NCBI GenBank assembly: GCA_004293915.1
Contig: RDZG01000074.1
Span: 1 to 53,302, forward strand
DNA from: Bacteroidota bacterium
GTDB lineage: Bacteria; Bacteroidota; Bacteroidia; Cytophagales; UBA9547
Direction of reading: 5' to 3'
Length of the DNA stretch: 53,302 nt
Shown here: piece by piece, positions 10,229 through 52,959 of the stretch
How positions within the stretch are numbered: position 1 is the stretch's first letter
How the letters are laid out: each line of letters starts with the position of its first letter
Translations under genes and position numbers: made by a program
The notes under the pieces: model-generated
Told to the model about the DNA's origin: nothing
Database searches by the model: none
The model's input: the letters and a program-made list of their open reading frames with translations, nothing else

Positions 10229-11485
10229 ATGAAACAAACTTTTGCAGAGGTAATTACAATAGGCGATGAGATACTTTTTGGTCAAATTACAGACACAAAC
10301 ACTCAATATATTAGCGAACAATTATCCTTAATTGGAATAAAAACCATTCGTAAATCTTCGGTAGGTGATAATGAAAAAGATATTTTAGGCGTATTGTCAG
10401 AAGCTATAAACAGAGCAGATGTAATTATTCTCACTGGAGGACTGGGACCCACAAAAGATGATATTACAAAATTAACATTATGCAAATTTTTAGGTACCGA
10501 TTTAATAATTCATGAACCAACTTTAGTACATGTTCGGTCTTTTTTTGAAAAACGTGGCAAACCAATGCTCGAAATTAATAACCAACAAGCTGCTGTGCCT
10601 CGTATTTGTGAAGTGCTATTTAATGATGTTGGCACAGCACCAGGAATGTGGATGATTTACAATGAAAAAATAATTATTTCGCTGCCTGGGGTGCCTTATG
10701 AAATGAAGTTTTTGATGCAAAATCGTGTTTTGTCAAAGTTAAAATCACATATCGAAACTCCATTTATTTACCACAAAATGATTCATACTGTGGCTATTGG
10801 CGAATCTTTTTTGGCGGAAACTATAAAAGATTGGGAAAATAATCTACCTAAGCATATAAAATTAGCCTATTTGCCATCACTTGGAATTGTAAAACTGAGA
10901 TTAACTGCAATAGGAGAAGATAGTAAAAAAATAATTACTGAGGTTGAACAATTGGTAGAAAAACTCGAAAAATTAATTCATCCGCACATTTTTGGATTTG
11001 ATTTAGATAATAAAATAGAAGAAGTAGTTGGTAAATTTTTAGTTTCTCAAAATAAAACTCTTGCAACTGCCGAAAGCTGTACAGGGGGCTATTTAGCTTC
11101 TTTAATCACTTCAATTTCAGGCTGTTCTGCTTATTTTAAAGGTTCTGTCTTAGCTTATTCAAACGAAGTAAAAATTAATGTTTTAGACGTAAATAAATTA
11201 GATTTAGAAACAGAAGGTGCCGTGAGCGAAAAAGTTGTGAAACAAATGGCACTTAATGTACGCCAAAAACTAAACACAAACATAGGAATTTCTATTTCAG
11301 GTATTGCAGGACCAAGTGGCGGAACAGTTGAAAAACCAGTTGGCACCGTTTGGGTTGGCTATTCTGATGAAAAAAATACCTTTGCTCAAAAATTTATTTT
11401 TGGAAATTTGAGAGAAAATAACATCAAACTCGCTTCGATTTATGCTTTAAATATGCTTTTAAAAGAATTGAAAAAAGTAAGTTGA
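10229..11485 (+). CDS. cinA: CinA-type competence/damage-inducible protein
   Basis: A 418-residue two-domain protein. The N-terminal molybdopterin-binding-fold domain (about 1-170) carries ITIGDEILFGQITDTN and LTGGLGPTKDDITK, associated with ADP-ribose pyrophosphatase activity. The C-terminal CinA_C domain (about 260-415) carries ATAESCTGGYLASLIT, SAYFKGSVLAYSNEVK and ISGIAGPSGGT, the nicotinamide mononucleotide deamidase active-site region (PncC). Full length suggests a bifunctional NAD-repair enzyme. A GTG two codons upstream is possible, but the ATG at 10229 is preferred. A TAGATTTG box lies at 10202-10209 as a possible -7 element. The gene converges with moxR, with only 29 bases between stops. 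Confidence 0.93.
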   Translation: MKQTFAEVITIGDEILFGQITDTNTQYISEQLSLIGIKTIRKSSVGDNEKDILGVLSEAINRADVIILTGGLGPTKDDITKLTLCKFLGTDLIIHEPTLVHVRSFFEKRGKPMLEINNQQAAVPRICEVLFNDVGTAPGMWMIYNEKIIISLPGVPYEMKFLMQNRVLSKLKSHIETPFIYHKMIHTVAIGESFLAETIKDWENNLPKHIKLAYLPSLGIVKLRLTAIGEDSKKIITEVEQLVEKLEKLIHPHIFGFDLDNKIEEVVGKFLVSQNKTLATAESCTGGYLASLITSISGCSAYFKGSVLAYSNEVKINVLDVNKLDLETEGAVSEKVVKQMALNVRQKLNTNIGISISGIAGPSGGTVEKPVGTVWVGYSDEKNTFAQKFIFGNLRENNIKLASIYALNMLLKELKKVS

Positions 11486-11514
11486 TTATTTTAGAAATTG
11501 ATTTTTAAATGTTA

Positions 11515-12471
11515 TTATAATAGTTTTTTTATAATATCTTCTACCGAAATCGATTCGGCTTCAGCTTTAAAATTGCGAACTATTCTATGGCGTAAAATGG
11601 GTTCTGCTACTGCCTTAACATCTTCTATGTCAGGCGAATACTTTCCAGAAAGTAAGGCATTACATTTTGCTCCTACAACCAAAAATTGTGATGCTCTTGG
11701 TCCTGCTCCCCACTCCAAAAACTCATTTGCTTCTTTCGAGCTTTGTGCTGTGTTTGGTCTGGTTTTGTGTACTAATTTTACGGCATATTCAATTACATTG
11801 TCTGCAACTGGTACTTTGCGTACAATTTCTTGGTATTCAAGTATTTGGCTTTTGCTAATTACTTTATTTGGAGTAAATTTTTTCTCCGAAGTTGTGTTTT
11901 TTACTATGTCAATTTCGGATTGAAAACTTGGATAATCTAGTTTGATATTGAACATAAAACGATCTAATTGAGCCTCAGGAAGCGGATAAGTTCCTTCTTG
12001 CTCGATTGGATTTTGGGTTGCTAATACAAAAAACGGTTTTTCGATGGTATAATGCACACCAGCAGCCGTTACAGCTTGTTCTTGCATGGCTTCGAGCAAA
12101 GCAGCTTGCGTTTTTGGTGGTGTTCTGTTTATTTCATCTGCCAAAACAATATTTGAAAAAATCGGACCTTTTATAAATTTTAAATTTCGATTCGAGTCTA
12201 ATGTTTCTGAACCTGTGATATCAGAAGGCATTAAGTCAGGGGTAAATTGTATGCGATTAAAGTCCAAATCCATTGTTTGAGCTATGGTTTGAATTAATAG
12301 TGTTTTTGCCAAACCGGGTACACCTACCAACAAACAATGTCCACGGCTAAAAATTCCTGTTAATAAAAGTTTTACTACATCGTCTTGTCCAATAATTACT
12401 TTTTGGATTTCTTTTGTGAGTTCTATATATGATTTTGCCAACGAATCGGCTAGTTCTACATCTGATTTCAT
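11515..12471 (-). CDS. MoxR family AAA+ ATPase
   Basis: A 318-residue AAA+ protein. It has Walker A GVPGLAKTLLIQ, Walker B VLADEINRTPPKTQAALLEA and the sensor 1 region FVLATQNPIEQEGTYPLPEA, followed by the C-terminal lid (about 220-318, with ending RHRIVRNFKAEAE). MoxR ATPases act as chaperone-like maturation factors and are usually encoded next to DUF58 and von Willebrand factor A proteins. None of these partners is adjacent here: cinA is on one side and an Rpn nuclease on the other, both on the opposite strand. The partner genes may be elsewhere. Confidence 0.9.
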   Translation of the reverse strand: MKSDVELADSLAKSYIELTKEIQKVIIGQDDVVKLLLTGIFSRGHCLLVGVPGLAKTLLIQTIAQTMDLDFNRIQFTPDLMPSDITGSETLDSNRNLKFIKGPIFSNIVLADEINRTPPKTQAALLEAMQEQAVTAAGVHYTIEKPFFVLATQNPIEQEGTYPLPEAQLDRFMFNIKLDYPSFQSEIDIVKNTTSEKKFTPNKVISKSQILEYQEIVRKVPVADNVIEYAVKLVHKTRPNTAQSSKEANEFLEWGAGPRASQFLVVGAKCNALLSGKYSPDIEDVKAVAEPILRHRIVRNFKAEAESISVEDIIKKLL

Positions 12472-12593
12472 TTATTACTATTCAACTTTTCGTATCTGAC
12501 AAAAATAATGCTAAAAATTAAACTACATAGAATAATAAAATTATATTTTAGTCTATAATCTTAATAAATTGTAATTTTTTGTAATTTTACTAA

Positions 12594-36368: not shown

Positions 36369-36879
36369 TTATAAATTAAAATCTATTGCATTATGATTTG
36401 GTTGCATGGTAAAAATATTATCGGTAATTCGAGCAAAATAAATGCCGTTTTCTTTTGTAAGTGCAATAGCATCTTTGTCGCCAACATCCACCACAGCCAA
36501 AATGCCGTACAAATGTTTGTCTTTATATTCTGGAAAAAGTGTTTTAAATTCTTTCAATTCTTCAACCAGTTCGTAAACATGCTTTGCTTCAAGTTTACTT
36601 TTGATTTCAACAATTACTGCATTGTTTACTTTGCCATTGCAATAGCCAAAAACATCGTATTCGACAGTTTTAGTAGGCGAAAATTTGCGTTTGAATCGAG
36701 GAGTAACCAACTTGTTTTCCAATATTGTTTATGTATGCTTCGGTTTTTAAACTCCTGATTTCAAATTCTTTTCTGCTTTTTTCTGCTTCAATTCTCGACT
36801 TTTCAGCTTCAATAGCTGTTTTTTCTTGGAATTCAAGTAATCTATCTAAAGCAAAATTAATTTCTTCTAACGTTCTCAT
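36369..36879 (-). pseudogene. Broken duplicate of the DUF3782-type gene
   Basis: This copy matches the intact gene at 36908-37489 almost throughout but carries two changes. A 92-bp deletion (junction at 36708/36709; the missing stretch corresponds to 37248-37339 of the intact copy) joins two ACC triplets and shifts the frame. A 21-bp in-frame duplication adds SRIEAEK in the coiled coil. The result is two ORFs: 36670-36879 (69 residues, coiled coil with a nonsense tail) and 36369-36722 (117 residues, nuclease-like half from an internal ATG). The copies are head-to-tail and 28 bases apart. The C-terminal half could still be expressed, but its coiled coil and linker are gone. Confidence 0.85.
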
Positions 36880-36907: not shown

Positions 36908-37489
36908 TTATAAATTAAAATCTATGGCATTAGGATTTGGCTGCATGGTAAAAATATTATCGGTAATTCGAGCGAAATAAATACCGCTTTCTTTTGCAAG
37001 TGAAATAGCATCTTTGTCGCCAACATCAACGACAGCCAAAATACCGTACAAATGTTTGTCTTTATATTCTGGAAAAAGTGTTTTAAATTCTCTCAATTCT
37101 GCAACCAGTTCGTGAACGTGTTTAGTTTCAAGTTTACTTTTGATTTCTACAATTACAGCATTGTTTACCTTGCCATTGCAATAGCCAAAAACATCGTACT
37201 CGACAGTTTTCGTAGGCGAAAATTTACGTTTGAATCGTGGTGTAACCGTATTTATTAAAAACTGTTTTTCCAATATTTTTTCCATCGTTGGCAAAGCCAT
37301 GCCTTCGGTAAAATAGCCAAATTTTTCGCCTAATCCACCAACTTGTTTTCCAATATTGTTTATGTATGCTTCGGTTTTTAAACTCCTGATTTCAAATTCT
37401 TTTCTCGATTTTTCAGCCTCAATAGCCGTTTTTTCTTGTAATTCAATTAATCTATCTAAAGCAAAATTAATTTCTTCTAAGGTTCTCAT
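36908..37489 (-). CDS. DUF3782-type PD-(D/E)XK nuclease-like protein
   Basis: A 193-residue protein. An N-terminal coiled coil (about residues 5-50, EKTAIEAEKSRKEFEIRSLK) is followed by the linker GGLGEKFGYFTEGMALPTME and a restriction-endonuclease-like core: Asp99 in VEYDVFGYC, Glu115 and Lys117 in AVIVEIKSKL, then a helix LVAELREFKTLFPEYKDKHL and strand YGILAVVDVG. This matches DUF3782-type proteins. They are common in genomes with many mobile elements, and their activity is unproven. A TAAATTTG box lies at 37494-37501 on the minus strand. The gene has a broken tandem copy downstream. Confidence 0.8.
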   Translation of the reverse strand: MRTLEEINFALDRLIELQEKTAIEAEKSRKEFEIRSLKTEAYINNIGKQVGGLGEKFGYFTEGMALPTMEKILEKQFLINTVTPRFKRKFSPTKTVEYDVFGYCNGKVNNAVIVEIKSKLETKHVHELVAELREFKTLFPEYKDKHLYGILAVVDVGDKDAISLAKESGIYFARITDNIFTMQPNPNAIDFNL

Positions 37490-40931: not shown

Positions 40932-42446
40932 CTAATGGTCTGATTTTGTTAAAATAAAATTGTGATATTTTAACAAAGTGTTTTTGTTTTCAATAAATTT
41001 TGAATCAATATTTAGTTCACACCAATTAGTATTAATTTCTCCTTGATTATTTGGAATTAGGTTTAGTTCAAAAGTTTTAGATAATAAATCAATATTTTGC
41101 TTGTTGGTTAAATTAAAATATTCTGAAATTTGATAATTAAATCCGCAATTACGATTTATTGCAATATTTTTTTCATCATATTTAAGAGTAAAGTTTTTTC
41201 CGAGATAAAAAATATAGTTCATTTTGTTGTTTATGTACATTTTATGTCGTTCATTTTGTTTTATGAAACAAGCATTAAAGTTGATTATTGTAGAGTCGAA
41301 ATAAAAAACAATAAGATCAAAGCTAGTATTGTTATTTATCATTAGTCTGTGTTCTTTTTTTTGGTCTAAAGTGTTTTTAGTGCCGAAAATAGGATTCAGA
41401 AATGGATTATTACCAGTATATTTTTCAATGTAATTATCATCGGATGTTACGTTTTTATCAAATCTGTAAGCAACCATTTTTCTAAATCCTTTTATATCTT
41501 TTTCCGAAATAGTATTATTAATGAGTTTAATATTATTATAGTTGATATTTTCGTTTTTAGACGAGTTAGTTGTTTCGTTTTTAGAGCAATATTTTAATGC
41601 ATTAAAGGCAAAAATAAAAGCAAAAATTAAATATGCCCATTTAGAAGAAACTCCAGTTGCAGATGAAGAAAATGTATTATGATTACTTCGTATTAGTTTG
41701 ATATATTCTTCATCTGTACAATTAATTTTTAAAAGATTTGAGCTTATTCCTATTAAAATTACTTTATTGTATTTTTTTAAGTTATGATATGCAACAGTTA
41801 AGTTGATTAATCGTGCAGTAATTTCGTTTTTTTGGTCTTCAAATTCTTCGGGCAAAATATTAATAAAAGCAGATAAAGAATGTTGTGTTAAAAATTTTAA
41901 ATCATTATTTTGTATCTCAAAAATTCTTGATTCAAGTTCATTTAAAAACAATGTAAATGTATTTAATGATTTTTGAACCTCTTCATAACATATATTTTTA
42001 TACTTTTCAGATAAATTACACATTAAAAAAAAGGCTTCTTCGGCTTGTGAAAAAATGTGTGTATTAACCCCTTTTTTGAATTGAATGATAAATCTAGTAT
42101 ATAGGATGTTTTCTAGTTTTGATTTTATATTTTCGTTTAATTCAAGTTTTGAATATAAATTATAATTTAATATTTGACTTTCGTCTTCTAGGTAATTTAA
42201 TAACAAATTGTTGTTAAAAATAAAATCATGTAGTTCTAAATTTGGGTTTCCTAATAACGCATCAATTGTTTTAATGATTTGATCTTTGCTATATTGCTTT
42301 TGGTTTACTTTAATAGTAGTTTCTCCGCTCAAATTAAGTTCAGCCAATAATTGTTTTCTTAAACGAATTAAATTTGCATCATTAATTTCAAATGAATCCT
42401 CAGTTGCAAAGCCTTTTATTATATGTAATGGAGATTGATAGCTCAT
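40932..42446 (-). CDS. Single-pass membrane protein of the Hsp70/GrpE-like operon
   Basis: A 504-residue protein of no recognised family. The first 265 residues are hydrophilic and helical (for example [20 protein letters not shown] and [18 protein letters not shown]). One membrane helix follows (about 269-286, [18 protein letters not shown]). The C-terminal 215 residues are Asn-, Ile- and Phe-rich and probably beta-structured ([40 protein letters not shown]). Orientation is likely N-in/C-out, but this is not certain. The start codon overlaps the Hsp70 stop by one base (TAATG), which means translational coupling and a shared job. The cytoplasmic half may be the client or membrane docking site of the chaperone. 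Confidence 0.7.
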
Positions 42447-44938
42447 TATCCTAGTCCTGTTCCCGAAATTTTATCAAAAGTAACCACGTGATTTGCCAAA
42501 TTAAGTAATTGCATTAAAACACCTTTTAATTCCTCATAATTTTTTCTTTCTAAAGCTTTTTCGCCTCTTTCTATTACTTCTTTAGCTTGTTTGTAGTTTT
42601 TATACTCACTTTCACCTTTAGTAGCATATTCATTAAAAAATAGGATAAGAATAGATGGCGTATTAAATATAATTTTATTGTAAATTCTAATTTGTGCTTT
42701 TTGTAAACCATCTAATTGAAAAAAACTATTACTTGCAAATGCTGCACTTTCTTTTTCTTTAATACTTTCGTATTCTGTTTTAATGTTAGCAGGTATGTCA
42801 TCATAAAAATCAAACCAAAAATTAATATTACTTCTCATGGAATAATACTCTTCTTTTACTTCAACCATTTTAGGATTTGTTTCAGAACCATAAATATCTT
42901 GTGCTAATTTCCGTTTTTGTTCTTCAAGCTGGTATTTGGTGTCGCTCAAATCGTTAGGATTAAGTTGCATTACTTTTTCATACAGTGCATTGAATTTTTC
43001 GTTTGTATCATTTAATTCGGCTGCTTTTTCATAATCCTCTTCATTTGATGCTTTATTCAATTCAATAGAAAGCATATTTTTTATTTCTTTTATTTCATCT
43101 CTCAATTTCGTAATGCTCACATGTTTTTCGGTTGGACTAAAAACATTGCTAAACTGTTGATTGAATAATAATAAATTGACTTTTACGCTCACATCTCTGC
43201 TCTCGCTCATTTCAATTTTAATTTCCACATCACTGCCTTTTATTAAATCGCCTTGCAAATCTTTAGCTGCAATTTCTATTACACCTATGGCTTGGTTAGT
43301 ATTAGGGTGAGCTTTGCTGTTGCCTTCCAAAACATTTATAATTAAATAATCGTCCCCCTTTTTTTTAATGGTTTTACTCATTTCTCTATAAAGTGTTTTT
43401 ACCAAAGGCAAAATGCTATTTCGCTCAAAAATAGGTAAACATTTAGTGGTATTATTGTCAATATCATCTACTTCAATAGAAATATCTTCGGGCAAAGGTT
43501 GTCCAAATAAATTAAATAAACCGTGTGTAATTTGTATAAAAGTATGCTGTGTTTTTAATTCTGTTTGTTTTGCATCTAAAATTTTAAACGTAAAGTCATT
43601 GATTGTGTTTTGTCTTAAAGTTACAAATTCTCCAAATTTTAGTTTCAGTGGTTTTAAGCCTGTATCAAAGCCTCCATCGTTTCGGGTAATGCGATAAAAA
43701 CAATTTTCTGGACAATTTGCAACTAAGGCTGTAATGTATTCCTCGGTATCTTTGGTGGTTTTATTATAAGAAATTTGCAAATCAATATCTGTTTGAGTTT
43801 GAGCAATATCTGCATTTGTAGTAATTACATTAGTTGTTTTATTACCTGCATAATAGGCTGCACCAATGGCAACTGCTGTTGATGGGTCGGCACTAGTATT
43901 TACAATTAAGCCTGTTTTTTCAAAAATTTGTTGTCGCACATAAGGTATGTAAGTGCTTCCACCTATCATAATTATTTGTTGTAAATCAGTAAACGTTAAA
44001 TTGTTACGTTTTACTACTTTTGAAATCATTTCAATAGTATCGTTAATTCTTGTTTTGATACATTCATTAAATTCTTCTTTGTTTATTGTAATAAAATAAT
44101 CTTTCTCATCTCCATTTTCTTCAAAATCAAAATTAAACTCAATTTCGGTGGAATTAACTGAGCTTAATTCTTTTTTTGCCTCTTCGGCTTTTAGTAAAAG
44201 AATGTAGTATAGTTTTTCATATTTACCTTTTAGTTTATTTAGTTCTGATTCTAAATCTGTACAACCAGTTTGTCTAATTAATTTTGGTAAAATAATTTCC
44301 ATCACGATGCTATGATCAAAATCTAAACCACCCAAAAAATTATCGCCTTGATGGTCAAGCACTCTCATTTCTCCGTTATTAATGCCGATTAAGGCTACAT
44401 CAAAAGTTCCACCACCTAAATCATATACCAACCATTTTCCATTGGTTTCGTTTTCTGCTTGTTTATTAAAAAAAGCTAAAGATGCTGCTATAGGTTCTTG
44501 TAATAACACTACTTCTTTAAAACCTGCTTCGTAACCAGCTTTTTTAGTGGCATTACTTTGCATAGTATCAAAACTTGCTGGAATTGTAATCACTACGGAT
44601 TCAGGTTTTTCTTGAGTATGTACAAAGTTTTTCAATTCACTTAACACATAAGAAGATAATTGTATGGGTGTATAAAATTCATTTTTTGTCAAAGAAAAAT
44701 AAGATTCAGATGTTCCCATTTTTCTTTTAAAACTTCCAAATACATTTAAAGGATCTTTTAAAAGCCACTCCCTTGCTTTATCTCCTATAATAATACGTTC
44801 GCTTCTAAATGCCACACAACTTGGCAAAGTTTCTTTAAAACCAATTGGGTTTTTAAATACTTCAACTCCTGCTGAATTGTATTTTGCTATTAAAGAATTA
44901 GTTGTACCTAAATCTATTCCGAAGTTAATAGTTTGCAT
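42446..44938 (-). CDS. Divergent Hsp70 family protein
   Basis: The 830-residue protein has a well-preserved ATPase domain (1 to about 370): phosphate 1 NFGIDLGTTNSLIAKYN, phosphate 2 LVYDLGGGTFDV (170-181), and the adenosine motif IIMIGGSTYIPYVR (322-335), closing with DPSTAVAIGAAYYAG. The canonical interdomain linker and DnaK peptide-binding domain are not recognisable. Instead about 460 residues follow, with a beta-rich part (about 380-620) and a helical part (about 630-820, DEIKEIKNMLSIELNKASNE, ERGEKALERKNYEELKGVLM). It is thus an accessory Hsp70, not the housekeeping DnaK. It lies 11 bases after a GrpE-like gene and overlaps the membrane-protein gene by one base. No J-domain protein is nearby. 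Confidence 0.9.
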   Translation of the reverse strand: MQTINFGIDLGTTNSLIAKYNSAGVEVFKNPIGFKETLPSCVAFRSERIIIGDKAREWLLKDPLNVFGSFKRKMGTSESYFSLTKNEFYTPIQLSSYVLSELKNFVHTQEKPESVVITIPASFDTMQSNATKKAGYEAGFKEVVLLQEPIAASLAFFNKQAENETNGKWLVYDLGGGTFDVALIGINNGEMRVLDHQGDNFLGGLDFDHSIVMEIILPKLIRQTGCTDLESELNKLKGKYEKLYYILLLKAEEAKKELSSVNSTEIEFNFDFEENGDEKDYFITINKEEFNECIKTRINDTIEMISKVVKRNNLTFTDLQQIIMIGGSTYIPYVRQQIFEKTGLIVNTSADPSTAVAIGAAYYAGNKTTNVITTNADIAQTQTDIDLQISYNKTTKDTEEYITALVANCPENCFYRITRNDGGFDTGLKPLKLKFGEFVTLRQNTINDFTFKILDAKQTELKTQHTFIQITHGLFNLFGQPLPEDISIEVDDIDNNTTKCLPIFERNSILPLVKTLYREMSKTIKKKGDDYLIINVLEGNSKAHPNTNQAIGVIEIAAKDLQGDLIKGSDVEIKIEMSESRDVSVKVNLLLFNQQFSNVFSPTEKHVSITKLRDEIKEIKNMLSIELNKASNEEDYEKAAELNDTNEKFNALYEKVMQLNPNDLSDTKYQLEEQKRKLAQDIYGSETNPKMVEVKEEYYSMRSNINFWFDFYDDIPANIKTEYESIKEKESAAFASNSFFQLDGLQKAQIRIYNKIIFNTPSILILFFNEYATKGESEYKNYKQAKEVIERGEKALERKNYEELKGVLMQLLNLANHVVTFDKISGTGLG

Positions 44939-44949
44939 ATGGACAGAAA

Positions 44950-45243
44950 TTATTTTTTAGATTCAACTATTACAACACCTCGTTGTGCAATTTGATTGTC
45001 TTTTATCACAATGGGTTTAATGACTTTTGTAATGACCAATTTAGTCATAGTTTCACCAACAATAGAGGCTTCTAAATCGGTGCGTGTTTCATTATATGTT
45101 TCTCCAATTGGAATCGAATAGCTATAACCTATTTCATCAAAGGCTTGTTTGATGCGATTAAAATTACGTTCAAACTCATCATTACTACCAATCTTTTGTT
45201 CTAATACTGTGAGTTGATTGATAATTTCTAAAATTTGTTTCAT
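44950..45243 (-). CDS. Minimal GrpE-like nucleotide exchange factor (proposed)
   Basis: A 97-residue protein. A short N-terminal helix (about residues 1-38, with EFERNFNRIKQAFDEIG) leads into a segment that aligns by eye with the C-terminal beta domain of GrpE: YSIPIGETYNETRTDLEASI for the PxGxxFDPxxHEA region, and VIKPIVIKDNQIAQRGVVIV for the QKGYxLxDRVIRPAxVxV region. The long dimerisation helix of true GrpE (197 residues in E. coli) is missing. Being first in the operon with a divergent Hsp70 makes a dedicated exchange factor plausible. The similarity is seen by inspection only. Confidence 0.6.
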   Translation of the reverse strand: MKQILEIINQLTVLEQKIGSNDEFERNFNRIKQAFDEIGYSYSIPIGETYNETRTDLEASIVGETMTKLVITKVIKPIVIKDNQIAQRGVVIVESKK

Positions 45244-49559: not shown

Positions 49560-51635
49560 CTATTTATGTGTCTCATCAAATTTATTTTCAAATTCTCTTT
49601 TCTTATTTTGTTTGTCTTCTGAATCAGTTAAACGATTAAAACAAAATGAGCAAATCATCCAAAGTCCAATTAATGGTGCGTACATTAAAGCTCGTAATGT
49701 GTTTTTTTGTGTTTCACTTTCTAGTCTATCAATTGCTGTAATTATTTTATACGAATAATTGTAAGTCCAGTCTTTACAACAAAACTGTAATACCGTAAAT
49801 ACAACTATTAAAATTCCAACAGGAATCAACCAATATGCAGGTTTTGCCCATTTTCTAATATCCTCTTTAACCGTTTTAATTTTAAGTGCCGCCTTTAGTC
49901 TTTTTACTTCCTGCTCTTTTGAATTAAGTTTAATGCCTTGTTCATCTGTTTTAGATTCGAGGTCTTCTATTTTTACCGATGTTGCTACTTTATGGGATTC
50001 AAAACTGTATTCAAGAACTGAATGCTTTGCTGAAAGTTCATCAAGATTTTGTTCAAGTGTTGTTTTTGCGAATGATTTTGATTGTTCAATTATTTCATCA
50101 TCGCTAAAGCCTTTTTGCAATACATCTTTGAATTTCTTTTCTACTAAAATTTTAATAATGGACGATTGCTTTTCCGCATCTTCTGTTATTTCACTTATAC
50201 CAGTTAATATTAACTGTAACTTTTCATAAGAAATTTCTTTTTCACCTTGTGGCATGTTTAGAAAACTAACAAAGCTTTTAAAGTCATCATTCGTCCGCTT
50301 TACATATCGCAACAAAATACTCATCCATTGGCTTGGGAGCAAAACAATAGGAGTTACATTGCTTCTTTGAAAATCCCATCTTCTTAATCCTTGGTCAGTT
50401 GATAGAAAAAAGAATTTTGTTTCTACTAAGTTGGCATCTTTTCCATCTCTTCTTTTTTCAATGAGATGAATATTTTTAGCGTCCCAATTTGATGTTTCAA
50501 ATCCATTTATTGATCCTTCTGATGATTTGTAACTATGAATGTTCCCTGCAATTTCATTCAAGAGTTTTGCTGTCTTTTCTTCCTTTTCATCAAATGGCAT
50601 TTTGTAGTCAATTGATGCCTTAAACTTTTTGATTAAATCTTCAAAAAGTACGTTTATATGTGATTCAAAATAATCTAAGCTAGTATTGGTTCTGTTTATT
50701 CTCCATTTGTGATAAAAATCAAAGAAGTCACTTTGAGCTTTGAATGCAGTAAAAACTCTTGGATTAATACGAGGTGAATTGTGTTTTGCTATTAGAGAAA
50801 TGTAATATTTAACTGTAGCTTTAAATTCAGTTTCTGAAAATCGAGAAATAATGAGAGTTTCACCTGCCTCATTAAATTTTGTAAGAAATGATATTGTCCT
50901 TTTTTGTCGATTCTCACCATTAATACCTAATGCTCTAAAAATTACATTTGTGTCAAGGTAGAAAGTTTTATTTTTAAGGCTGTTTAGGTGAATAGAATTT
51001 GCAGAATTGTTTGTTATCAAACAGTATTCAATGCCATAGCTTGCTATATCAAATATTGCTTTGTTCTTACCATCATTATCCCAACTTAAAAAGTTGTTTA
51101 TAATTTCCCTTTCTAACTCATTGAATTGCGACTGTTCAACATTAATTAATTCAGTTAGTTGCTTTTTGCTATTCAATAACTTTGAAAACCCACTTATATT
51201 TGAATTTATCAAGTCATACAAAAATTTGTACAGTAAACCTTTGGCATCTACAACATTGTTTACCTTTTCATCTTGCTTAATAAATTCGGTAATAAAATAG
51301 TCAATGTTCTGTGTGTTAATTTTCGATAAAAGTGTTTGTCTTCTTTGTTCTGTAAGGCATACTAAATAATTATTGCCTTTGTCCTTTCCTAAATGAAAAC
51401 CATCTTCTTTTGGACTTGTAACGATTGATTTTATTTCTTCTTCGTCAAATGTAAAATGATAATTGGCTTCTATAAAATCAATTATTTGGTGAATAGTCAT
51501 TTGCTTATTTTCATTATCAAACAAAGATGATTCAATGATTTTTCTATGAATAGTTTTTGAACTAACCTCATAGTTGTTGTCAGCATACAAAACTGCTGCT
51601 AAACGGAATAATTGATTTTTAGATTCTACAGTCAT
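49560..51635 (-). CDS. Large PIN-domain protein with C-terminal membrane anchor
   Basis: A 691-residue protein. Residues 1-220 are helical and hydrophilic, with no clear family. A PIN-like nuclease core then begins at FYLDTNVIFRALG (Asp228), continues with LIISRFSETEFKATVKYY, and reaches FFLSTDQGLRRWD (about 415-427) with the late acidic residues. A helical and coiled-coil section follows (about 500-590, LEQNLDELSAKHSVLEYSFE). Two membrane helices lie near the end (YWLIPVGILIVVFTVLQF and MYAPLIGLWMICSFCF). It lies 10 bases after the hsdS gene and is probably co-transcribed with the restriction genes. A membrane-bound RNase defence effector is a reasonable guess, not shown. Confidence 0.65.
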   Translation of the reverse strand: MTVESKNQLFRLAAVLYADNNYEVSSKTIHRKIIESSLFDNENKQMTIHQIIDFIEANYHFTFDEEEIKSIVTSPKEDGFHLGKDKGNNYLVCLTEQRRQTLLSKINTQNIDYFITEFIKQDEKVNNVVDAKGLLYKFLYDLINSNISGFSKLLNSKKQLTELINVEQSQFNELEREIINNFLSWDNDGKNKAIFDIASYGIEYCLITNNSANSIHLNSLKNKTFYLDTNVIFRALGINGENRQKRTISFLTKFNEAGETLIISRFSETEFKATVKYYISLIAKHNSPRINPRVFTAFKAQSDFFDFYHKWRINRTNTSLDYFESHINVLFEDLIKKFKASIDYKMPFDEKEEKTAKLLNEIAGNIHSYKSSEGSINGFETSNWDAKNIHLIEKRRDGKDANLVETKFFFLSTDQGLRRWDFQRSNVTPIVLLPSQWMSILLRYVKRTNDDFKSFVSFLNMPQGEKEISYEKLQLILTGISEITEDAEKQSSIIKILVEKKFKDVLQKGFSDDEIIEQSKSFAKTTLEQNLDELSAKHSVLEYSFESHKVATSVKIEDLESKTDEQGIKLNSKEQEVKRLKAALKIKTVKEDIRKWAKPAYWLIPVGILIVVFTVLQFCCKDWTYNYSYKIITAIDRLESETQKNTLRALMYAPLIGLWMICSFCFNRLTDSEDKQNKKREFENKFDETHK

Positions 51636-51645
51636 AAATTTTTAT

Positions 51646-52959
51646 TTAAACTTCAACTGGTTCTTTCCTCAAAGCCTCTCTTAAAACCTGTTGCAGTAAT
51701 GTTGAATTTTGTGATTCACTTTGTTTGATGCTTGTTTCCAACTCATTACAATACTGCATCAATTCTTCTAATTTTTGAACGATGCGAATTTGCTCTGATA
51801 CTGGGGGAAGTGGAATTGGCATTTTTTTCAATGATATTCCTGTCAAATGCTGAATTCCTGAACCTGTTAAGTAGTCTTTAATTTTTCCATTTGAACAAAT
51901 TAAATCCAAGTAAAACAAATAAAGCTTTGCTGGGATATTACTATAAAACCTTACCCGATGTATTGCCTTTTGAAACTTAAATGTTTCATCATCTGATTCC
52001 CAAATTGCACCTCGTCCAGGATAACCGCCTTCACAAATTAACAAGTCACCCTTTTTTACAGAGTATTCCTCTAATTCGGATTCTTCAAATTTCATCAGTA
52101 GCACATCATCTAATTCAAATCGGTACCACTGTACATTTAGATTTCTAAAGTATGGATAATATTCGCCTTTATTCTTAGTGCCGTCAAGCATTTTACCCAA
52201 ACGAGTATCACAAATCTCCCCCAACCTACACCACACCCAATTTTCAGGAATTTCAAAAGGAATTTCTTCGGGTTTGATAGGTGGTAGTTCTTTTTCTTTT
52301 TTTAGTTTCTTTTCTGCAATCGGTTTTTGTTTTTCGGCTTTTATCTTTTTAAGCAATTCCCTTGCTGGTTCGTCTTTTTTATTTTGCTCCACCAATTTGC
52401 CTTGCACAGCATCTTGCAATAATTGTTGACGGAGTTTTTTTACTAAAGTGAGTTGGTGGGTTAGTTCGGAGGAAATCTGTTAGCCATTTTTCTCCAATAG
52501 TTGAATATTAGAAATTAGACGTCTTTGAGTTTTAATATCAGGTAGCATCAACTCCAATTCAAACAATTGAGTAGTATTGATTCTTTGTGTTGCTACTCCC
52601 GAAGCAATTTTAGAAAGTTCCAAATAGAAATTACCTTGTTTGAAGTAGTAAAATATAAATTCAGGTAAGCAAGATTTGTCCACATCAAAAGCTGGTAAAT
52701 CAGAACTGCTTTCAAAGCCATCTAATTCTGGTGGAACAATTCCAAATGCACCTTTATGGAAATTTTGTTTGCCGTAAATAAATTGGCCCGCTTTTCTAAT
52801 ATATTGTTTTGTTGCACCTTCTACTTCATTTTCCAATCCTCTTTTTTCGACTCCAAAAACCTTTAATCTTACCGTAATCCTTCGGTCTGGATTAGGGTTT
52901 TCTGAAACGATTTTGCTTTCAGTTAAAATATCTCCCAATTTTACTTTCTTCCTACTCAT
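51646..52959 (-). pseudogene. hsdS: Type I restriction specificity subunit hsdS, split by one in-frame stop
   Basis: Two ORFs, 52480-52959 (159 residues) and 51646-52419 (258 residues from a TTG), are the two halves of one HsdS. They share a reading frame. The first ends with EKNG and a TAA at 52480-52482; the next 20 codons (QISSELTHQLTLVKKLRQQL) and then LQDAVQGKLV continue as an ordinary HsdS central conserved helix. The first half holds target recognition domain 1 (YGKQNFHKGAFGIVPPELDG). The second holds domain 2 (LGEICDTRLGKMLDGTK, GIQHLTGISLKKMPIPLPPV) and the final helix (EQIRIVQKLEELMQYCNELE). Half-subunits can sometimes dimerise, so partial function is possible. Confidence 0.85.

Follow-up and report, generated by a model that had tools for sequence, protein, structure and literature searches.

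A conserved three-gene module of Bacteroidota encoding a divergent Hsp70, a predicted GrpE-fold protein and a membrane-anchored partner

Introduction

Contig RDZG01000074.1 of a Bacteroidota bacterium (Cytophagales; UBA9547; GenBank assembly GCA_004293915.1) was analysed over a stretch of 53,302 nucleotides, positions 1 to 53,302 (referred to as the window), corresponding to contig C82 in a draft genome of 3.85 Mb. On its reverse strand the window carries a three-gene operon encoding a protein of 97 amino acids, a divergent Hsp70 and a membrane-anchored protein, denoted below as mini-GrpE, Hsp70 and P3. We find that this operon is real and constitutes one conserved three-gene module. Alignments indicate that this Hsp70 family has lost the residues by which DnaK receives its J-protein, with the catalytic residues intact; the 97-residue protein is predicted to adopt a GrpE fold. 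The operon is described here from sequence comparison and predicted structures. The loss of the J-contact residues, a constant partner devoid of the HPD motif and a conserved C-terminal tail of the Hsp70 are the new points, and the titles and abstract openings among the matches listed in a search of open-licence literature contain no description of this Hsp70 family.

Conservation of the three-gene operon

The mini-GrpE open reading frame (ORF; 44950..45243, 97 amino acids), the Hsp70 gene (42446..44938, 830 amino acids) and the P3 gene (40932..42446, 504 amino acids), all on the reverse strand, follow each other leftward in this order, with a gap of 11 bases between the first two and a one-base TAATG overlap between the last two, which bears out the layout given in the initial annotation of this DNA. 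Since an ordinary dnaK, one grpE and two J-domain genes are found on other contigs of the same genome, the operon represents an additional set. Two further genomes from this genus have a different gene upstream of lipA, and the operon is therefore accessory at this site.

A scan of a species-genome collection yielded 341 confirmed stretches that encode relatives of the ATPase segment; the 80 best loci among them, nearly all from Bacteroidota according to their titles, were examined. Adding the window and seven loci of further genomes gives 88 loci (among them L059, from Chitinophaga arvensicola DSM 3695), 87 of them distinct, as L014 and L102 are one contig stretch; L102 is omitted from all distinct counts, and the distant cousin L032 and the plasmid cousins L007–L013 are omitted from the synteny counts. 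The small gene is present in 86 of the 88 loci (in 11 of these it emerged beyond the first ORF picking) and lies on the Hsp70 strand in all 86, at a median distance of 10 bases from the Hsp70 gene (within 60 bases in 73/86). Where the Hsp70 gene was flanked by at least 2 kb on each side (68 distinct loci, the window among them), the small gene was found in 67, a P3 gene in 66 and both in 65; with the duplicate included, the respective numbers are 69, 68, 67 and 66. The three-gene order, which the initial annotation had proposed to seek in other genomes, thus recurs, and a gene set that recurs in this way argues for more than chance. The next commonest neighbour family, a cluster of ABC-type ATPases, is found near 8 of the 88 loci, around which no conserved fourth gene was detected.

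The Hsp70 ATPase domain and the residues contacted by J-proteins

The ATPase domain of the Hsp70 (amino acids 1–378; 43805..44938, reverse strand) is matched by PF00012 at residues 6–377 with an E-value of 2e-68 and 231.5 bits, against a gathering score of 20.6. The protein scores below the NCBIfam cut-offs for DnaK (224.3, against 648 and 822.55) and HscA (220.6, against 708.55). For the comparison of residues, Hsp70s from 82 loci and six of the seven plasmid cousins (L012 is omitted), which give 88 rows (87 distinct), were aligned together with 20 DnaK sequences from relatives; six of the 88 loci lack an Hsp70 longer than 780 residues and are omitted from the residue and tail counts. All 88 rows retain the equivalents of DnaK K70, P143, E171, D194 and T199, in line with the earlier statement that all ATPase motifs of Hsp70 are preserved.

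In DnaK, the HPD motif of the J-protein contacts R167 and the linker residue L391, according to passages of PMC8215388. The corresponding segment of the window Hsp70 reads VLLQEPI (amino acids 144–150; 44489..44509, reverse strand), so that the equivalents of R167, N170 and T173 are V, Q and I, with that of E171 kept. Across the family, the R167 equivalent is arginine in none of the 88 rows (V in 52, L in 16, F in 5, and seven others), the N170 equivalent is Q in every row and the T173 equivalent is I or V in every row, whereas all 20 comparison DnaKs display R, N and T at these positions. The R151 equivalent is lost as well, being S in 79/88 rows. A linker of the VLLLD type, present in 20/20 DnaKs, occurs in 0/88 rows of the family, the bare string LLLD being found in two (L054, L058). 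The residues that would receive a J-protein are thus lost while the catalytic residues are kept, and with R167 and the linker lost, housekeeping DnaJ should not be able to drive this Hsp70.

Insert, substrate-binding domain and C-terminal tail

According to the initial annotation, the Hsp70 has no recognizable peptide-binding domain and about 460 unfamiliar residues in its place. This does not hold for the first part: a divergent substrate-binding beta domain was located at amino acids about 502–597 (43148..43435, reverse strand) by comparison with the substrate-binding domain (SBD) of DnaK in hhalign (E 8.6e-7 with the 88 family rows, 7.7e-9 when the comparison was made with the six plasmid cousins, and 0.0014 with narrower alignments), the best of 30 column-shuffled controls reaching an E-value of 0.042. 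A profile of 30 sequences retrieved the HSC70 substrate-binding domain from the PDB at E 6.3e-5. In the PDB search the domain became detectable only after the alignment had been widened beyond nine close relatives, with which the C-terminal part gave only two matches (E 0.31 and 0.61). The description as unfamiliar stands for two other regions. An insert of about 90 residues (amino acids about 385–470; 43529..43786, reverse strand, from the family alignment) separates the ATPase and substrate-binding domains at the site where DnaK has its short hydrophobic linker, and a C-terminal region aligned at amino acids about 605–815 (42494..43126, reverse strand), presumed to be the lid, follows the beta domain; neither matched the SBD/lid profile of DnaK.

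The Hsp70 of the window ends in GTGLG (42449..42463, reverse strand), and the family pattern TG[ILV] lies within the last nine residues, after a variable stretch, in 76 of 81 distinct full-length members (77/82 if the duplicate is counted), the background rate per 9-mer being 0.77%. All 34 loci whose downstream partner is co-directional have the tail, and so do all 34 with a convergent one (33 distinct); as it is equally present in both arrangements, it is not a by-product of the start of the next gene. All five exceptions are among the 14 other loci, in a pattern that is uncorrected for kinship. The tailless Hsp70s are those of L026, L028, L030, L103 and L111, loci without a counted P3 gene immediately downstream. 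With kinship uncorrected, this hints that the tail and the type of P3 go together.

A predicted GrpE fold in the 97-residue protein

The AlphaFold model of the 97-residue protein (71 sequences; pLDDT 91.4, pTM 0.80) displays two helices and six strands. In a Foldseek search against the PDB, ranks 1–12 were all GrpE or GrpEL1 chains (probability 0.84–1.00), with E-values from 5e-3 to 0.26 and none at 0.001. VIA-align places 95 of the 97 residues onto residues 89–196 of E. coli GrpE (1dkg_A) with Z 9.0 and an rmsd of 4.0, the first unrelated row scoring 2.7. The structure prediction proposed earlier as a check therefore found the GrpE fold; the profile comparison proposed alongside it was in register and better than all 30 column-shuffled controls, but weak (hhalign P 0.013, probability 3%). 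The plain sequence matched nothing in Pfam, NCBIfam or PADLOC and nothing convincingly in the PDB, there was no row for PF01025 (Pfam GrpE) at E-values up to 10, and a genome-wide back-translated search with this protein alone returned no matches.

The likeness to GrpE noted in the initial annotation is thus upheld by the model, whereas its restriction to the beta domain is not, as two helices before the wing are also present. What is missing is the long N-terminal helical stalk. The parts that are kept are those that form the dimer bundle and the DnaK-binding wing in GrpE. Judged by its predicted structure, the protein has a GrpE fold, and we infer a candidate exchange factor that may reset the Hsp70 cycle.

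The membrane-anchored partner P3

The AlphaFold model of P3 (77 sequences; pLDDT 83) is nearly all-helical up to residue 265 (amino acids 1–265; 41652..42446, reverse strand; a conserved domain, presumed cytosolic), followed by a single membrane helix at amino acids 267–286 (41589..41648, reverse strand) and a variable distal part at amino acids 287–504 (40935..41588, reverse strand; AlphaFold and domain scans), 218 residues in length, with a partly confident beta region. This corresponds to the plan of a 265-residue part, one membrane helix and a distal part read earlier from the sequence.

An iterative profile of the first 320 residues gathered 107 family members (106 distinct), spread over 77 of the 88 loci, and two more loci (L063, L066) raise the number of loci to 79; two borderline P3-like proteins at L030 (E 0.006 and 0.76) were counted as absent. 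Two to five copies are present in 23 of the 77 loci. In 90 of the 107 members, hydropathy places a single hydrophobic helix where the domain ends, the P3 of the window itself staying under that threshold, and the length beyond the helix ranges from 0 to 548 residues. Scans of 50 of the 68 distal parts identified one FGE-sulfatase domain and one TonB C-terminal domain (TonB_C); the domain scan gave no match for the distal part of the window P3. Since such domains usually reside outside the cytoplasm, they argue for a topology of P3 with the N-terminus inside. P3 is a family with a constant helical half, a membrane helix and a swappable far end.

The string HPD occurs in 2 of 103 P3 domains, at residues 62 and 91, neither being the place of the motif in J-proteins, and between helices II and III it occurs in 0 of 103. 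A standard J-domain gene was found near only 1 of the 88 loci in the fetched surroundings. The suggestion that the system has no J-protein therefore holds in the strict sense. At the one exceptional locus, L027, a J-protein gene together with a gene for a 96-residue protein (11321-12514) lies in divergent orientation, at a distance of about 190 bases to the mini-GrpE gene and 543 bases to the Hsp70 gene; by resemblance we take the former to be CbpA-like and the latter CbpM-like.

A fold search with the whole P3 gave nothing at E 0.001 or better, and residues 1–87 were barely covered. A VHL beta-domain fold reached probabilities of up to 0.99 with an E-value of 0.12 or worse over 55–69 columns and is not claimed; matches to the helical part with Z up to 11 were mostly designed repeat proteins and hence uninformative.

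Related operons on plasmids

More distant, full-length cousins of the Hsp70 were found on plasmids of Pseudomonas, Sinorhizobium, Aminobacter, Shewanella and Vibrio, with a protein of about 115–123 residues encoded directly upstream. The identity of this upstream protein to the 97-residue protein is 41% in Pseudomonas and 14–16% in the others (identity only). For a further cousin, on a Haliscomenobacter plasmid, the protein encoded upstream is 299 residues long. On the Pseudomonas plasmid, the P3 domain (E 4e-47) lies after TPRs and before another domain, with no membrane helix by hydropathy. As the domain is kept after TPRs in this relative, it is the domain itself that constitutes the constant partner. 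The last domain of this Pseudomonas protein is also present on the partners of two proteobacterial cousins whose N-termini are weakly J-like, and this common C-terminal domain is the main pointer, a hint from sequence, that the P3 domain may stand in for a J-protein.

In the partners at L007 (5516-7636), L011 (13390-15408) and L013 (11845-13464), which adjoin related Hsp70 genes, the N-termini differ, consisting either of TPRs plus the P3 domain or of a J-like part, and the C-terminal domain is common, being weakly DUF6585-like in two of them. L011 (1-18040, Shewanella plasmid) comprises the cousin operon, an AAA ATPase and a peptidoglycan-binding protein. In L012, on pSymA of Sinorhizobium meliloti, the annotation splits the long partner gene into two overlapping ORFs; it is a single ORF in L008.

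Proposed mechanism and alternative explanations

Based on this dataset, we hypothesize a self-contained, insulated Hsp70-GrpE cycle on the cytosolic side of the inner membrane, tethered via P3 and with an activator other than a standard J-protein, an explanation in which we place about even confidence. In such a cycle, the helical domain of P3 would do the job of the J-protein, in that it would bring the Hsp70 to the membrane and set off ATP hydrolysis, through a contact other than HPD-R167 that possibly involves docking of the conserved Hsp70 tail. Upon hydrolysis, a client or segment would become clamped at the membrane; the mini-GrpE would reset the cycle, and swappable distal modules would give each P3 copy a separate job outside the cytoplasm. 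Quality control or assembly of envelope proteins seems the most likely role. The initial annotation had proposed a dedicated Hsp70 machine acting at a membrane protein with a minimal exchange factor; predicted folds and synteny agree with this, and joint action of the three proteins is what we infer from the two.

Several observations weigh against this hypothesis. Presence in the phylum is sporadic, with 8 of 395 genomes matched, the genome of the window included, and one of these eight (L032 in genome G186) is a distant cousin (E 1e-7) for which neither the small gene nor P3 was detected. At L027, an ordinary J-protein gene stands beside the operon. The N-terminal 90 residues of P3 compared with J-domains gave P 0.083, a value equalled by 1 of 30 column-shuffled controls, and the fold search yielded no distinctive PDB match for the helical part. 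Moreover, the positive-inside signal is weak, with a mean net charge of 1.1 before and 0.26 after the helix.

A rather doubtful, albeit plausible, alternative is that P3 contains a true but highly degenerate J-domain lacking HPD, in which case the system would work much like HscC with DjlB/DjlC. The order of the N-terminal helices in the AlphaFold model of P3 (8–13, 23–40, a hairpin, 54–64, 70–78) parallels that of helices I–IV of J-domains. Further, the partners of four proteobacterial plasmid cousins match DnaJ weakly at their N-termini (P 0.0014), and the C-terminal domain of the Pseudomonas P3 protein is common to two such partners. However, profile comparisons with DnaJ gave no support for P3 itself as a J-protein, and P3 compared with the J-like part of the cousins reached only P 0.031 (P 0.039 with a longer region, in a different stretch).

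P3 might also be a dedicated client rather than an activator, such that the Hsp70 keeps P3, which is often tail-anchored, competent for insertion or controls its assembly. P3 is the only constant partner, it is often duplicated, and among four near relatives it is more divergent (29–39% identity) than the Hsp70 (66–71%), all of which would suit a client. The Pseudomonas protein, having TPRs in place of a membrane helix, suits an adaptor better than a client for insertion, and we consider this alternative unlikely.

Least probable among these explanations is a conflict or anti-phage system resembling the HSP70-GrpE-DnaJ theme of GAP1-N2 GTPase systems, which would fit the sporadic occurrence, the genes for ParE, PemK, Fic and type I restriction-modification specificity proteins that border the operon in the window, the BREX genes beside the cousin on the Haliscomenobacter plasmid and the Tn7-like transposition genes directly upstream of the L011 operon on the Shewanella plasmid, but which is made less likely by the lack of a conserved effector or fourth gene, by the common neighbour genes of seven Chitinophaga loci, which suggest inheritance in place, and by the absence of any relative from viral contigs in searches with two pattern sets. 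A PADLOC scan of 126 neighbour proteins from 22 of the 88 loci (4 short or shadow ORFs of 130 were left out) likewise points away from defence: 86 models matched at least one protein and none matched more than six, in a scan that had no control set, and the commonest, mad3 and AriA (6/126 each), were judged to be broad regulator and ATPase models. The conflict or stress-sensing role considered in the initial annotation thus finds support in the toxin-antitoxin and restriction neighbours of the window and, as far as the neighbours compared and scanned extend, none in the family as a whole.

Comparison with known chaperone systems

The operon resembles the DnaK-DnaJ-GrpE system in having an Hsp70 ATPase with its catalytic residues, a substrate-binding beta domain and a partner of predicted GrpE fold. 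It differs in the loss of the equivalents of R167, N170 and T173 and of the linker pattern, in the insert between the ATPase and substrate-binding domains, in a length of 830 residues compared with about 640 for housekeeping DnaK, in the stalkless GrpE, in the lack of a partner with HPD and in a conserved tail of its own. In eukaryotic cytosolic Hsp70s, the conserved EEVD peptide forms the C-terminus and is preceded by a variable linker; here, too, a conserved C-terminal peptide follows a variable stretch, but its sequence is TG[ILV].

The closest known arrangement, as far as the consulted passages of PMC8215388 extend, is that of HscC with the tail-anchored DjlB/DjlC, likewise a specialized Hsp70 with genomically linked, membrane-anchored partners and sporadic presence in bacteria. 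According to these passages, HscC is 550–580 residues long and has J-domain proteins as its partners, while an interaction with GrpE is not expected; in contrast, the present Hsp70 has 830 amino acids, a private GrpE-fold protein encoded adjacent to it and no partner with HPD, and is set apart from HscC by the features described there. For the wider phylogeny of Hsp70 the same passages cite Barriot et al. 2020. In the GAP1-N2 systems, as outlined in parts of Kaur et al. 2020 (PMC7159879), HSP70 and GrpE genes are also linked to a fast-evolving third protein. There, however, the third protein has FNIII repeats in fusion with DnaJ or TPRs, and the theme is centred on a GTPase plus GAP1, mainly in actinobacteria and firmicutes, whereas no fourth gene recurs near our 88 loci (GAP1 and GTPase models were not searched directly).

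A more far-reaching interpretation, which we put forward tentatively, is that of a separate bacterial Hsp70 branch beside DnaK, HscA and HscC, without any J-domain, in which the HPD-R167 switch would have been replaced outright by a membrane-tethered helical adaptor that bears swappable modules outside the cytoplasm and activates the chaperone through a new contact, docking the TG[ILV] tail, with a stalkless GrpE resetting the cycle.

Genomic surroundings

Further along the window, two separate ORFs (51646-52419 and 52480-52959) each have a match to Methylase_S, the specificity domain of type I restriction systems, and look like a split hsdS or two tandem partial copies. A protein of 691 amino acids (49560-51635) adjoins these ORFs; by eye it has two hydrophobic stretches near its C-terminus, and it gave no Pfam match at E 0.001. 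To the left of the operon, the neighbouring leftward ORFs at 36369-36722 and 36908-37489 are nearly identical over about 100 C-terminal residues, the first lacking the N-terminal part, probably as the result of a recent duplication. At L029 and L031, in related genomes, the operon adjoins genes that we take, by resemblance, to be gldKLMN (gliding/type IX secretion).

Conclusions

With the receiving residues gone, a partner that lacks HPD and a private exchange factor apparently kept, this family would represent a natural experiment on what triggers ATP hydrolysis by Hsp70. It may also offer an orthogonal chaperone for engineering. Finally, it would provide a testable role for what may be hundreds of Bacteroidota genes that are annotated as 'Hsp70 family' or 'hypothetical'.

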